This document shows, one piece after another, positions 18,506-57,112 of a DNA stretch of 64,000 nt. Every line of letters starts with the position of its first letter. Within the stretch, counting starts at the first letter, position 1. The DNA is taken from the NCBI GenBank assembly GCA_007570785.1, contig ML664174.1, positions 2,689,054 to 2,753,053 of the forward strand, in the 5' to 3' direction. Both the position numbers and the translations under genes were made by a program. Under the pieces are notes generated by a model. The model was given only the letters and a program-made list of their open reading frames with translations. It was not told where the DNA came from and did not search any database. The DNA comes from Antilocapra americana. Lineage: Eukaryota; Chordata; Mammalia; Artiodactyla; Antilocapridae.

Positions 18506-19562
18506 GCAAGGTGAAAAGACCGCCTTCAGAATGGGAGAAAATAATAGCCAATGAAGCAACGGACAAACACTTAATCTCAAAAATATACAAACAACTCCTG
18601 CAGCTCCATTCTAGAAAAATAAACGACCCAGTCAAAAAGTGGGCCAAAGAACTCAACAGACATTTCTCCAAAGAAGACATAAAAATGGCTAACAAACACA
18701 TGAAAAGATGCTCAACATCACTCATTATCAGAGAAATGCAAATCAAAACCACAATGAGGTATCACTTTACACCAGTCAGAATGGCTGCAATCCAAAAATC
18801 TACAAGTAATAAATGCTGGAGAGGATGTGGAGAAAAGGGAACCCTCTTACACTGTTGGTGGGAATGCAAACTAGTACAGCCACTATGGAGAACAGTGTGG
18901 AGATTCCTTAAAAAACTGCAAATAGACCTGCCATTTGACCCAGCAATCCCACTGCTGGGCATATACACCGAGGAAACCAGAATTGAAAGAGCCACGTGTA
19001 CCCCAATGTTCATCGCTGCTTTATTTACAATAGCCAGGACATGGAAGCAACCTAGATGCCCATCAACTGACGAATGGATAAGAAAGCTGTGGTACATATA
19101 CACAATGGAAAATTACTCAGCATTAAAAAAAAATTCATTTGAAGCAGTTCTACTCAGGTGGATGGAACTGGAGCCTATTATCCAGAGTGAAGTAAGCCAG
19201 AAGGAAAAACAACAATACAGTATACTAACGCATATATATTGAATTTAGAAAGATGGTAACGAGAACCCAGCATGCGAGACAGCAAAAGGAACGCAGACGT
19301 ATAGAACAGACTCGTGGACTCTGTGGATGAGGGCAGGGGTGGGATGATTTGGGAGAATGGCATTGAAACATGTTAAGTATCATATGTGAAATCAATCGCC
19401 AGCCCAGGATTGTTGCTCGGGGGTGCTGCACCGAGATTTCCCGGGGGGAGGGAGTTGGGAGGGAGGAGGGAGAGGGGTTCTGGAGGGGGAGCATATGTAC
19501 ACCCATGGCGATATCATGTCATTGTATGGCAAAACCAATAAAAAAAATTTTAAATAAATAAA
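18506..19562 (+). mobile_element. 5'-truncated bovine-type L1 with 11-bp target-site duplication
   Basis: The element carries the last ~730 bp of ORF2 and a ~320-bp 3' UTR ending in an A-rich tail with AATAAATAAATAA. It is bracketed by the direct repeat TAAAAGGTGGA (18495-18505 and 19563-19573). The left copy overlaps a TTTTTAAAAG context typical of L1 endonuclease cleavage. It lies antisense to RGS6 in the intron between the exons at 19745 and 17122. Confidence 0.93.
18511..19242 (+). pseudogene. L1 ORF2 C-terminal fragment
   Basis: An uninterrupted 243-codon frame, from an internal Met to the natural ORF2 stop. It covers the region after the reverse transcriptase, including the C-terminal cysteine-rich motif [18 protein letters not shown] and the [14 protein letters not shown] stretch. 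Endonuclease and reverse transcriptase domains are absent, so it cannot be active. The lack of stops indicates a fairly recent insertion. Confidence 0.92.
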
Positions 19563-23960: not shown

Positions 23961-24025
23961 TGGTCTTTTGGACTCTGTGGGAGAGGGCGAGGGTGGGATG
24001 ATTTGGGAGAATGGCAAAAAAATAA
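23961..24025 (+). mobile_element. 65-bp L1 3' end insertion with target-site duplication
   Basis: Only the last part of the bovine L1 3' UTR is present (GGACTCTGTGGGAGAGGGCG ... ATTTGGGAGAATGGC, then an A-rich tail). It is flanked by AAAAATGAGA (23951-23960 and 24026-24035). The same 3' UTR phrase occurs in the longer copy at 19315-19360. Confidence 0.88.
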
Positions 24026-26643: not shown

Positions 26644-26708
26644 TGCTTCATAATCTGCCAGTTCCAGCCTTGCTTTATTCTGCATTGTCCTCTTACAGAG
26701 GTAGATGG
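26644..26708 (-). CDS. RGS6: RGS6 exon, start of DEP helical extension
   Basis: The 65-nt exon completes an Ala codon (G from the previous exon + CC), then reads [21 protein letters not shown], ending in phase 0. The [17 protein letters not shown] stretch is a hallmark of RGS6 and RGS7. The acceptor is TTTCTCTTCCTTCAG; the donor is GTAAGT, the best consensus among the ten. From memory, human has Val in place of this Ile (AVYL). Confidence 0.95.
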
Positions 26709-35123: not shown

Positions 35124-35175
35124 CATAGTCCGTGTTTTCAGGTTCCCAGCAATTTGAAGGCCAGAAGTATGGGGC
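35124..35175 (-). CDS. RGS6: RGS6 exon, end of the DEP domain
   Basis: The 52-nt exon reads [17 protein letters not shown], then the first base of an Ala codon. The [14 protein letters not shown] motif closes the DEP domain of RGS6 and RGS7 and starts its helical extension; it differs from the RGS9 version. The acceptor is GGTCTTTTGCAG and the donor GTGAGC. It joins RFQ of the previous exon in phase 0 and GCC-Ile of the next in phase 1. Confidence 0.95.
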
Positions 35176-36470: not shown

Positions 36471-36577
36471 CTGGAAACGATAAAAGGTGCCATCATCCTT
36501 CATGGTGAGAACATGGTCTGAGATGGGAAAGACGTAGCCCTGGGCAGCTATAAGGCTTCCCAAGTGTATTGCTTCAA
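36471..36577 (-). CDS. RGS6: RGS6 exon, core of the DEP domain
   Basis: The 107-nt exon completes a Val codon (G + TT), then reads [18 protein letters not shown] and [17 protein letters not shown], ending in phase 0. This is the DEP core; the [10 protein letters not shown] end is shared by RGS6 and RGS7. DEP binds the membrane anchor R7BP. The acceptor has a long pyrimidine tract (TTCTCTTTCTTCTGCCCTG TCCCTGCAG) and the donor is GTAGGC. From memory, human has Leu for this Ile (EALHLG), Phe for this Val (GYFFPIS) and Leu for this Met (VLTLKDD). Confidence 0.95.
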
Positions 36578-37715: not shown

Positions 37716-37813
37716 GGAGTTTTAGCAAGTAATTAAACCTCTTCATTGTGGTTCAGGCAATGTAGTTTTAAGGGCTGGCTCTAGAAGGCTGTTCCATGAC
37801 AGTGCTACAACTT
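37716..37813. repeat. 98-bp local repeat, copy 1
   Basis: Ungapped match to 40342-40439 with 8 differences in 98 (about 92 %). It contains CAAGTAATTAAACCTCTT and GGCTGGCTCTAGAAGGCTG. The flanks do not align apart from a short TATTGGCTTTTTTTGC-like tract. It does not resemble any repeat family I know. Confidence 0.9.
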
Positions 37814-38560
37814 TCAAGAGGTTGTATATGATCCCGTCATTTTGCGTATTGAGAATCTGCTATTCTTCTTTGGAAGAAGTGTATACACTTGCCACTGGTA
37901 GAACTGGAACAAACGTAATTGTATTTTACTTGCTTAGTGATGGCCAGTTTGGCTCTGAAATCTATACGCTTCAAGAACCATGAGTCCAGCCGAAAAGGGA
38001 AATTTCATCACCTGCTCTTTCTCTGGAGAAGGAAGAACAAAACCCAGTAAGAAGGGGACTTTCATGTCACCAGTCTGGAGCTAGGAGTCTCACTTCATTC
38101 TTCAAAAGGCTTGTGCTTAGAGATGCTGCAGACGGGAAGGAAGAAGGCAGGGAGGGCGGACTTTGGCTACCTGACTTCCCAGGGTCTTGGTTGGCCTCAT
38201 TTCTGCTGGTGAATTGTCCTTAACTCCTGCTCAACTACTTCTCAGAAGCCCAGACGGGTCCCAGACCTTGATATCCTCCCAAGGGCATCAAGGTATAACA
38301 GACCATGAGAGATAAGATCTGTATCATTCAGGATCTCTCACAGAAGCTTCGCTTATCAGAACCAGAGAATTCCTACAGCATGTTCTACCACTGGGTGGTT
38401 CAGGGCTCTCAGAATATACCATTGCTTCTGCTACTACTACCGCTGAAGATAATGATAAAATACTTGTCAGAAATATGATGATTACGCCAGAAGGGCAAAG
38501 AAAACAGTACTCTTGGAAGAGAAAAAAACCCACCATGAAGAAGGGTGACTCTACATCATG
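37814..38560. other. RGS6 intron, no gene seen
   Basis: Lies between the two local repeats. Nothing recognised. No counterpart of the RGS6 exon at 40717 was found here. Confidence 0.45.
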
Positions 38561-39020
38561 TCCTGAGGGAGGGGACTTCTTTTAGCTCCCCATCCCCACC
38601 TGACAAGGGCTTCCCAACACAGATGACCACACAGGTTCTTGAAAAATATAAATCTCTAATTTCTTCTGGCCTGGGCTTATCCTGAATGAATAAGCCCCTG
38701 TGTCTGTGGGAGACACTTCTATGTGTTCATCTAAACCTCTGTCCTCCATCCCCTGGGCAACAACTAGATTACACTTCCAGACCTTCCTGCAGTTGGGTGT
38801 GGATTGAGTTCTGACAAGAGAATGTGGGTGGAAATGACATATGCCATTTTCAGACTTGGACCATAAAAATGTCCTGTGTGTCCCTCCACATCCCCATCTA
38901 CTGGATGAAGGGAGAGAGGGCAGAGCCACAATGTGGAAGGAGTCTGGGATCCTGAACAGACATGAAGATTGATGCCCATTTGGGGCTCTGACCTGATTGA
39001 AAAATAAACTTGTGATATTG
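38561..39020. repeat. 460-bp near-identical direct repeat, copy 1
   Basis: Matches 41101-41560 at every base except 39011 (T here, C at 41551). The right half (about 38761-39015) reads as an old MaLR-type LTR: CCATAAAAATGTCCTGTGTG, GCAGAGCCACAATGTGGAAG GAGTCTGGG, GATTGAAAAATAAACT. Flanks diverge abruptly at both ends. It lies in the intron 3' of the 51-nt exon in gene sense. Confidence 0.97.
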
Positions 39021-39311
39021 TAGAGACTTACGCAGTCCAGTTTTCAGAAGCAGATAATCAGAAGTCCAGGCTGCATAAGGCAAACACTTAGGGTAGTCAA
39101 TATGGGTTCTTCCCTTAAAAGGATTAGCATTTATAGTTTTCACTTGCAGTTTCCGAACTTGACTAGAATTAAGAATTTCCTCTCGACATGAGAGTGGTCA
39201 CTAGTCATGATGGAGAGAAAGACTAGGTGTCACTTCTGTTCACGACCTACTTTTCTGGCACTCAGGTTTCTGGCAACTATGTTTAATTGAATTCTATGTA
39301 AATTATAAATT

Positions 39312-39524
39312 GGGCTTCCCTGGTGGCTCAAATGGTAAAGAATCTGCCTGCAATGCAAGAGACATGAGTTTGATCGCTGGATCAGGAAGATCCCCTGGAG
39401 AAGGGAATGGCAACCCACGCCAGGATTAATGCCTGGAGAATTCTACGGACAGAGGAGCCTGGTGGGCTACAGTTCATGGGGTTGAAAAGAGTTGGACACA
39501 GTTGAGTGAATAACACTTTCACTT
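39312..39524 (+). mobile_element. Bov-tA SINE
   Basis: Full-length copy from GGGCTTCCCTGGTGGCTCAA to GAATAACACTTTCACTT. Confidence 0.95.
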
Positions 39525-39545
39525 CCATTGTCAATGGTCTATTAA

Positions 39546-39825
39546 GGGCTTCCCGAGCCTTACGGCTCAGTGGCAGAGTCTGCCTGCCACTGCAGGACAC
39601 ATGAGTTTAAGTCTTGGCCCAGGAAGATCCCATGTGACAAGGAGCAACTAAGCCTATATGCCACAACTCCTGAGCCTGTGTTCTAGAGCCTGGAAGCTGC
39701 AACAAGAGAAGCCACCACAATGAGAAGCCTGCACCCCACAACTAGAGAAAAAAAGCCCTCTTAGCAACAAAGACTGAGCATAGCTCTCCACTGCCCAAAA
39801 ACTAACTAAAAATTACTAAAAAACA
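39546..39825 (+). mobile_element. CHR-1-type SINE with 9-bp target-site duplication
   Basis: The tRNA-like head (GGCTCAGTGGCAGAGTCTGC) is followed by the CHR-1 body (GGAGCAACTAAGCCTATATG CC, CTCCTGAGCCTGTGTTCTAG AGCC, CAACAAGAGAAGCCACC) and an A-rich tail. Flanked by GTCTATTAA (39537-39545 and 39826-39834). Confidence 0.92.
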
Positions 39826-39834
39826 GTCTATTAA

Positions 39835-40341
39835 TATTAAGAGCATCAGATTAAAATGCAGAAATGCTTGAGCTGTCATAGTGACTCCAGTAAGGAATCA
39901 CAGCTAAAGGTCAGACACCTAGACTGGGCAATTGAAAAATATCTTCAAAAAGCAGAGTAATTGAAGGCCATTTAATTTGAGGCAAGTAGATCTAATCCCC
40001 AAGAACATCAGAATACATTAGTGGGTGCTTGTAAATGTGACTTTCAGGCATCAGAATACTTAGTTAAGATTGGGAATGTATAACAACTTCAGAAAAGTTT
40101 ACTTACCTCGAATTTTATTTCTTTTCCTGGAACCCCCCCACCTCCCCCCCAACCTCCATTTTCTAATTATGCTTTAAAAATCAATTTTATTGCTTTTTTG
40201 CTGGTGGGAGCACAGATTTGAAAACTCCTTCATTGGCCAGGGTTTGCTGTTGTTTTTCTGGTGAGGTTTTCCTAATTGCATTGCACAATTAAAGTTGAAA
40301 AAAAATCACTCCTTCACTTCTTGCAGAAGCAGAGAACAGAA
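39835..40341. other. RGS6 intron, no gene seen
   Basis: AT-rich with a CCCCCCCACCTCCCCCCC run near 40133-40150. Nothing else recognised. Confidence 0.4.
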
Positions 40342-40439
40342 GGAGTCTTAGCAAATAATTAAACCTCTTAATTGTGGCTCAGGCAATCTAATTTTAAGAG
40401 CTGGCTCTAGAAGGCTGTTCCGTGACAGTGCTACAACTT
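40342..40439. repeat. 98-bp local repeat, copy 2
   Basis: Partner of 37716-37813. It lies 277 bp on the acceptor-distal (3', donor) side of the 51-nt RGS6 exon. It reads AAATAATTAAACCTCTTAATT where copy 1 has a G and a C. Confidence 0.9.
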
Positions 40440-40716
40440 ATCTTTAATTGCTGTGGCTAACCAGAGTCCACGTTATTGTATCAGGCTCTTTGGCATTCTA
40501 AATGGTTGCTCATTTCCTCCAAGGGTAATTTAAATTTAAAGCAGAAACTCAGTGGAGGAAATAAATTAATTCTGTTTGTAAATGGAGTGATTCCACATCT
40601 TGGAATTCACTTGTATAAGCCCAGTTCTCAGGAGGGTAGGAGAAACTGGTTTGGAAATTGGGTATGGTTTGTTCACTAATATTTTGTGGGTCAAGACAAG
40701 GTTGAGGGCCAAGTAC

Positions 40717-40767
40717 CTGGGTCCTCGATGGAAAGGTTCTTCATAAGCCACTGTACAATGTCCGTAC
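40717..40767 (-). CDS. RGS6: RGS6 exon, DEP domain helix (5'-most exon seen)
   Basis: The 51-nt exon completes a Gly codon, then reads TDIVQWLMKNLSIEDP and ends with the first base of a Val codon. This is a DEP helix, with the motif family (S/T)DIVQWLMKNLSIEDPVEA. The acceptor is GCTTTTCCGTTGCAG and the donor GTACTT. The length is a multiple of three with matching phases, so skipping it would keep the frame and remove 17 residues from DEP. The Thr is where I recall Ser in human. The exon sits between the two copies of the 460-bp repeat. The next upstream coding segment (..KIPSVVT in the family) was not found in the window. Confidence 0.93.
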
Positions 40768-41100
40768 CTGCAACGGAAAAGCAATTTCAATTGAAGACCT
40801 CACGGATGCTTAATTCTGTGCCAGAGGAAACATGGTTACCCAGGAGATCCCTAGGTCCAATTAACACACACCTAGAGAGCTAGATAATACTGATACTTTT
40901 CCATCCTAACCAGCTCTTTCCACCCATTGGTATGCTTCCATAGTCACAATCCCATTCTTTTCCTCAAAAAAGTCCACGTCTGATGACTCAGATGATCTTG
41001 TGTCCACATTCCTAGGGAGCTTCAGGAGGGGACTTCCTGGGGATACATATTTTGATGACAGGCTAGAAGACGTTTTATCACTCCTGCTCCCCTGAACATT
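40768..41100. other. Presumed upstream RGS6 intron, no feature recognised
   Basis: Contains the splice acceptor region of the exon at 40717-40767, otherwise unique-looking sequence. Confidence 0.45.
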
Positions 41101-41560
41101 TCCTGAGGGAGGGGACTTCTTTTAGCTCCCCATCCCCACCTGACAAGGGCTTCCCAACACAGATGACCACACAGGTTCTTGAAAAATATAAATCTCTAAT
41201 TTCTTCTGGCCTGGGCTTATCCTGAATGAATAAGCCCCTGTGTCTGTGGGAGACACTTCTATGTGTTCATCTAAACCTCTGTCCTCCATCCCCTGGGCAA
41301 CAACTAGATTACACTTCCAGACCTTCCTGCAGTTGGGTGTGGATTGAGTTCTGACAAGAGAATGTGGGTGGAAATGACATATGCCATTTTCAGACTTGGA
41401 CCATAAAAATGTCCTGTGTGTCCCTCCACATCCCCATCTACTGGATGAAGGGAGAGAGGGCAGAGCCACAATGTGGAAGGAGTCTGGGATCCTGAACAGA
41501 CATGAAGATTGATGCCCATTTGGGGCTCTGACCTGATTGAAAAATAAACTCGTGATATTG
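41101..41560. repeat. 460-bp near-identical direct repeat, copy 2
   Basis: Same orientation as copy 1 and offset by exactly 2540 bp. Both copies contain the same open frames on the minus strand, which are incidental. The alignment begins at TCCTGAGGGAGGGGACTTC and ends at GTGATATTG in both. Confidence 0.97.
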
Positions 41561-41629
41561 AAACCCAGGCATTTAAGAGTTATCTGTTTTAGTGTCTATT
41601 TACCTTAACTAATGTAAATCTTAAGAATC

Positions 41630-42144: not shown

Positions 42145-42364
42145 GAAAGTGAAAGGGCAGTTGCTAAGTCGTGCCCCACTCTTGGTGACCCCATGGATGG
42201 TAGACATAGACCACCAGGCTCCTCTGTCCATGGAATTCTCCAGGCAAGAGTACTGGAGTGGGTTGCCATTTCCTTCTCCAGGGGATCTTCCCGACCCAGG
42301 GATCAAACCTGGGTCTCCCACATTGCAGGCAGTTTCTTTACCTTCTAAGCCACAAGGGAAGCCC
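42145..42364 (-). mobile_element. Bov-tA SINE with 12-bp target-site duplication
   Basis: Reverse-oriented full copy with a small duplication (GTAGACATAGACCACCAGG). Flanked by TCATGTGGGGGT (42133-42144 and 42365-42376). Confidence 0.95.
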
Positions 42365-57004: not shown

Positions 57005-57112
57005 AGATCCTGGACAGCTTGTGGGACCTCAGCTCCCCAACCAGGGTTTGAACCTGCACCCCAGCAGTGAAAGTGCTGAGTTCTTAACCACTGGACCACC
57101 AGGGAATTCCTG
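57005..57112 (-). mobile_element. CHR-1-type SINE, head only
   Basis: Reverse-oriented tRNA-like head: ACCAGGGTTTGAACCTGCAC CCC then TTAACCACTGGACCACCAGG GAATTCC. Confidence 0.85.

Follow-up and report, generated by a model that had tools for sequence, protein, structure and literature searches.

Two near-identical copies of a 460-bp unit were identified in direct orientation on either side of an in-frame exon of a predicted R7-family RGS gene in the window (the whole stretch of DNA that was analysed, 64,000 nucleotides in length). With moderate confidence, the pair is attributed to a recent local templated copy, in which the right-hand unit (copy 2) served as the source of the left-hand unit (copy 1) by fork stalling and template switching (FoSTeS/MMBIR). 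The features concerned are listed in Table 1.

Table 1. Positions in the window of the repeat units, the neighbouring features and the exons.
Feature	Position	Strand	Basis
Copy 1 of the 460-bp unit, likely derived and inserted; LTR part cut off at 39020	38561-39020	+	459/460 to copy 2; LTR family not continued in the flank past 39020
Copy 2 of the 460-bp unit, likely resident source	41101-41560	+	Flank past 41560 continues the LTR family; CpG where copy 1 has TpG
Putative terminus and edge of the old LTR, beside copy 2 only	41561-41615	+	z 2.55 for 55 bases anchored against 20 relatives
Hairpin: left arm, loop and first bases of right arm	38550-38560	+	Letters of the rejoined flanks
Hairpin: rest of right arm	39021-39025	+	Letters of the rejoined flanks
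Repeat A, left copy	37716-37813	+	98 bp, 92% (8 differences) to 40342-40439, offset 2626
Repeat A, right copy	40342-40439	+	Matches left copy; same order relative to the 460-bp units
In-frame 51-nt exon between the copies, phase 1-1, predicted 17 residues of the DEP domain	40717-40767	-	AG/GT borders; PDB and Pfam matches
Three further predicted exons	36471-36577, 35124-35175, 26644-26708	-	All four exons join in frame

Identity and extent of the repeat pair

Direct comparison confirmed the original prediction that the two units are identical at 459 of 460 positions, ungapped and in the same orientation, at an offset of exactly 2540 bp. The sole internal difference (39011 T in copy 1, 41551 C in copy 2) is a TpG in copy 1 and a CpG in copy 2, and the longest uninterrupted identity between the copies is 450 bp. 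The match was stretched by BLAST to 464 bp (38557-39020 and 41097-41560) with a second mismatch (38560 G, 41100 T) and was far beyond chance (E printed as 0.0), while no similarity was found by BLAST on either side of the 464-bp match. That the pair brackets an in-frame 51-nt exon, as had also been predicted, was borne out by the borders, phase and minus-strand position of the exon given in Table 1.

A megablast comparison of the whole window with itself at an identity of at least 93% returned only the 460-bp pair and one 41-bp pair. Twenty other 10-kb stretches of the assembly (one of which has 4946 N and two of which have a 10-N gap) contained no internal pair of at least 80 bp at an identity of at least 93%. 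In a search of the animal's own genome, in which the best candidates were scored, the unit was matched at these two places only, and neither copy together with its flank had a further match in 264 kb; a dispersed high-copy unit is therefore unsupported. Another direct match, which occurs in the window solely as a pair, lies at 19315-19362 and 23969-24016 (48 bp at 92%). Nothing on this locus was found in the titles or abstract openings of literature retrieved for RGS6 with cattle, or for RGS6 with copy number and bovine.

LTR content of the unit and direction of copying

A pattern taken from the unit was present at 24 places in the animal's own genome, 22 of them elsewhere than in the pair, compared to none for the reversed control. 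Sixteen of these 22 also matched copy 2 by BLAST at E values up to 1e-3, most of them over just 32-47 bases around the pattern, and one relative (L042) matched 41251-41481 at 60%. A second pattern, designed on the 3' end of the LTR, was present at 34 own-genome places compared to 5 for its reversed control, and 20 were fetched as relatives. Other diverged copies with the same 3' layout thus exist in the genome, and these sequence matches support the identification of the right part of the unit as the 3' portion of an old LTR. Of the earlier suggestion that half of the unit is an old MaLR-type LTR, it is the presence of an old LTR part that is upheld by the other copies; the family itself is presumed here to be MaLR/MLT1.

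The direction of copying was assessed by anchoring the flanks of both copies at the AATAAA motif and scoring their fit to the relatives against random segments of the window. With 20 relatives, which had been chosen by their 3' end, and with flank lengths of 55-75 bases, which were adopted after a shared motif had been noticed in the printed relatives and make the figures partly post hoc, the 55-base flank of copy 2 was equalled by 5 of 5000 random segments (0.10%; z 2.55), whereas that of copy 1 was ordinary (37% of 5000 controls as good; z 0.4). At 65 and 75 bases the proportions of 5000 controls as good were 0.12% and 0.18% for copy 2 compared to 32% and 34% for copy 1, and copy 2 outscored copy 1 in 18, 15 and 16 of the 20 relatives at 55, 65 and 75 bases, respectively. 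With shorter flanks of 15, 25, 35 and 45 bases, 18.5%, 8.5%, 4.4% and 1.6% of 3000 controls were as good for copy 2, and 54%, 21%, 29% and 34% for copy 1.

Local scores against unselected relatives gave no signal (188 for the flank of copy 2 and 182 for that of copy 1, with a control mean of 181; these scores were reached by 230 and 473 of 1000 controls, respectively). When the anchored test was applied to 15 of the 22 relatives, copy 2 was equalled by 2.4-3.1% of 2000 controls and copy 1 by 18-66%. Shuffles of the flank's own letters were as good in 0.55-0.6% of cases for copy 2 and in 3.7-10% for copy 1, and by this control the flank of copy 1 is not wholly plain. In addition, the motif TAACTAAT, chosen after the relatives were seen, occurs exactly in copy 2 at 63 bases after the start of AATAAA, exactly in 4 of the 20 relatives at 67-70 bases and with one mismatch in 2 more, whereas copy 1 has at least 3 mismatches; the exact motif was present in 0.2% of 5000 random segments.

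Copy 2 is likely to be the old resident and copy 1 a truncated young copy, because the LTR family runs on into the flank of copy 2 but breaks off at 39020 in copy 1. The CpG of copy 2 opposite the TpG of copy 1 agrees with copy 2 as the source. The claim of a recent duplication of the unit is thus supported by the identity of 459/460 and is extended by a probable direction, with assembly artefact and gene conversion as rivals that are considered below.

Junctions and hairpin at the probable insertion point

No poly-A was found after position 39020, and there was no target duplication at copy 1 beyond 2 bp (TG). The end of the source shares 2 bp with the target at the right junction and 3 of 4 bp at the left junction; each degree of homology occurs in 5.5-6.6% of random pairs and both together in 0.37%. 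When copy 1 was removed from the sequence, its flanks rejoined as a perfect hairpin across the join, with 7-bp arms and a 3-base loop. Such a hairpin, which was noticed after the fact, arose in 0.15% of 20,000 random joins with a loop of 3 bases and in 1.4% with a loop of 3-12 bases. An AATAAA lies at 39003-39008, with 12 bases of copy 1 after it, and 1.8% of the positions in the window fall 10-30 bases downstream of such a motif.

Origin of the repeat pair

From the near-identity of the copies, their likely polarity and the letters at the junctions, a stalling of replication followed by a template switch is inferred. At the small hairpin of the target site replication would have stalled or broken, the nascent strand would have switched through a few bases of homology to a template approximately 2.5 kb away, and 460 bp of copy 2 would have been copied in direct orientation before the strand switched back. 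The passages of PMC2583991 on sequenced FoSTeS junctions at the PLP1 locus give microhomology of 2-5 nt and name palindromes as a stimulus on limited data, and imperfect junction homology (microhomeology) of at least 5 bp is described at 51 of 159 join-points in the corresponding part of PMC6902434. The pair resembles the dispersed duplications at human PLP1 described in these sources in having a copied segment and a palindrome at the break and possibly in its short junction homology, and as in FoSTeS/MMBIR the source stayed in place and was copied without a tail. It differs from them in being one short local copy with no complex rearrangement, compared to template switches that span 120-550 kb in PMC2583991, and, with 3 of 4 bp matching at the left junction, it falls short of the minimum of 5 bp set for microhomeology in PMC6902434.

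The event could also be termed a class-2-like templated sequence insertion. The class 2 polymorphisms of PMC5110952 are similar in that the donor stays put, the insert is a few hundred bases long, a tail is absent and there is microhomology at the junctions. As described in that source, however, they lack a target duplication, a poly(A) signal and poly-A, have junctions like those of NHEJ and have a distant donor, whereas the donor here lies at a distance of 2.5 kb and the insert has an AATAAA close to its end. Class 1 insertions, according to the same source, carry a poly-A tail and duplicate at least 5 bp of the target, and copy 1 has no tail and TG only; neither class fits fully. The pair seems to be a routine outcome of DNA replication or repair, and not a novel type of element.

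The first rival is an assembly artefact, in which a wrong path or gap filling would have introduced the second copy, and it is considered unlikely. Near-identical stretches of 460 bp are hard for short reads, the use of which is suggested by two 10-N gaps among the nine 10-kb stretches (90 kb) examined to the right of the window (L005 at 590-599, L1-like by eye, and L013 at 2653-2662, in a GT run). Against this, the window itself contains no N, one base separates the copies, copy 1 has unique flanks that rejoin into the hairpin, and the own-genome search revealed neither a second locus nor a haplotig for the exon region. An assembler built on read words needs reads across both junctions, which was also counted against an artefact. 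On balance the sequence favours a real pair. The assembly could have collapsed additional tandem copies of the 2540-bp interval. Directly to the left of the window lie 4946 N (L004, 5055-10000), which may be a gap in the assembly or sequence that was withheld, and a search for mammalian contamination using one pattern each in viral contigs and genome contigs gave no match.

Gene conversion, by which an old insertion would recently have been overwritten, copy 1 from copy 2 or the reverse, is less probable again. Earlier local copying is apparent from the older local pair (repeat A, 98 bp at 92%), which has a near-equal displacement and the same order, but no diverged remainder is present at either edge of the unit, so that conversion of the whole unit would be needed. 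Moreover, the sequence that separates repeat A from the unit on the left is unrelated to its counterpart on the right, even with lenient scoring, so the pairs are not remnants of one block; duplication of 2.5 kb as a block or in tandem was rejected on the same grounds.

Marginally more doubtful still is an RNA route, in which a plus-strand RNA ending near the poly(A) site of the LTR would have been reverse-transcribed and patched into a break. The position of the AATAAA just before the end of copy 1 is in keeping with such a route, and insertions derived from RNA are among those described in PMC5110952. The poly-A and the longer target duplication, both class 1 features, are absent from the right-hand junction and the target, respectively, and class 2 as described in that source has no poly(A) signal and has distant donors. 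The usual L1 route is unsupported, with neither tail nor target duplication.

Age of the duplication

At an assumed substitution rate of 2.2e-9 per site and year, one difference in 460 positions corresponds to about 0.5 million years (interval 0.01-2.8). If gene conversion is the correct explanation, this figure dates the last homogenisation only.

An older local repeat pair

When a 1257-bp query containing the right copy of repeat A was searched against the animal's own genome, the only matches were to itself and to the left copy. Judged from the sequence, local copying seems to have connected these two zones twice, at different times. It is conceivable, though improbable, that the introns beside the exon form a recurrent donor and acceptor zone, in which two pairs of unlike age (98 bp at 92% and 460 bp at 99.8%) joined the surroundings of the exon to a zone 2.5-2.6 kb further down the gene in the same orientation and order. 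On this reading a fixed geometry of fork stalling would be suggested, and the newest pair would make 17 residues of the DEP domain removable in frame.

Exon and gene context

The exon between the copies reads (G)TDIVQWLMKNLSIEDP. All 92 residues of the predicted four-exon product aligned to residues 59-150 of RGS7 and 87 residues to RGS9 in the PDB, and Pfam matches were obtained to DEP (residues 1-52 of 92) and RGS_DHEX (residues 55-91). These matches identify the putative gene as an R7-family RGS gene on the minus strand, which is taken here to be RGS6 rather than another R7 member. Two inverted SINE-like stretches of 158 nt (39312-39469 and 42207-42364; 85% complementary) flank the same exon. 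The sole Rfam match in the window was to the tRNA model (57033-57105, minus strand, 41 bits), which could represent a tRNA gene or a tRNA-derived repeat.

Due to its phase of 1-1, loss or doubling of the 51-nt exon would keep the reading frame. DEP and DHEX are stated in PMC6310461 to be indispensable for binding of the anchors R7BP and R9AP, and loss of 17 DEP residues would therefore probably harm this binding.

Potential for exon loss by recombination

Section 7 of PMC2583991 gives the minimal uninterrupted identity for non-allelic homologous recombination (NAHR) as 134-232 bp in a mouse-cell assay and 300-500 bp in human meiosis. Like the low-copy repeats discussed there, the present copies are direct repeats, and at 99.8% identity their 450 uninterrupted bases lie above the mitotic minimum and within the meiotic range. 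Most NAHR repeats associated with disease are 10-400 kb long in that source, whereas the present unit is 460 bp and no rearranged allele was seen. Loss or gain of the exon through recombination between the copies is a mechanically plausible possibility, given the 450 bp of uninterrupted identity. The original prediction that unequal exchange would delete or duplicate the exon without breaking the frame is thus sustained as to mechanism and frame, and no such allele was seen in this assembly.

By itself the pair is the kind of structural variant that is expected in a mammalian genome. As an example of short-range templated copying within a mammalian intron, it would be datable, its direction can be read, its target has a hairpin and the repeats enclose an in-frame exon. 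Were it polymorphic, one could test directly whether repeats as short as these cause the loss of an exon from a signalling gene.
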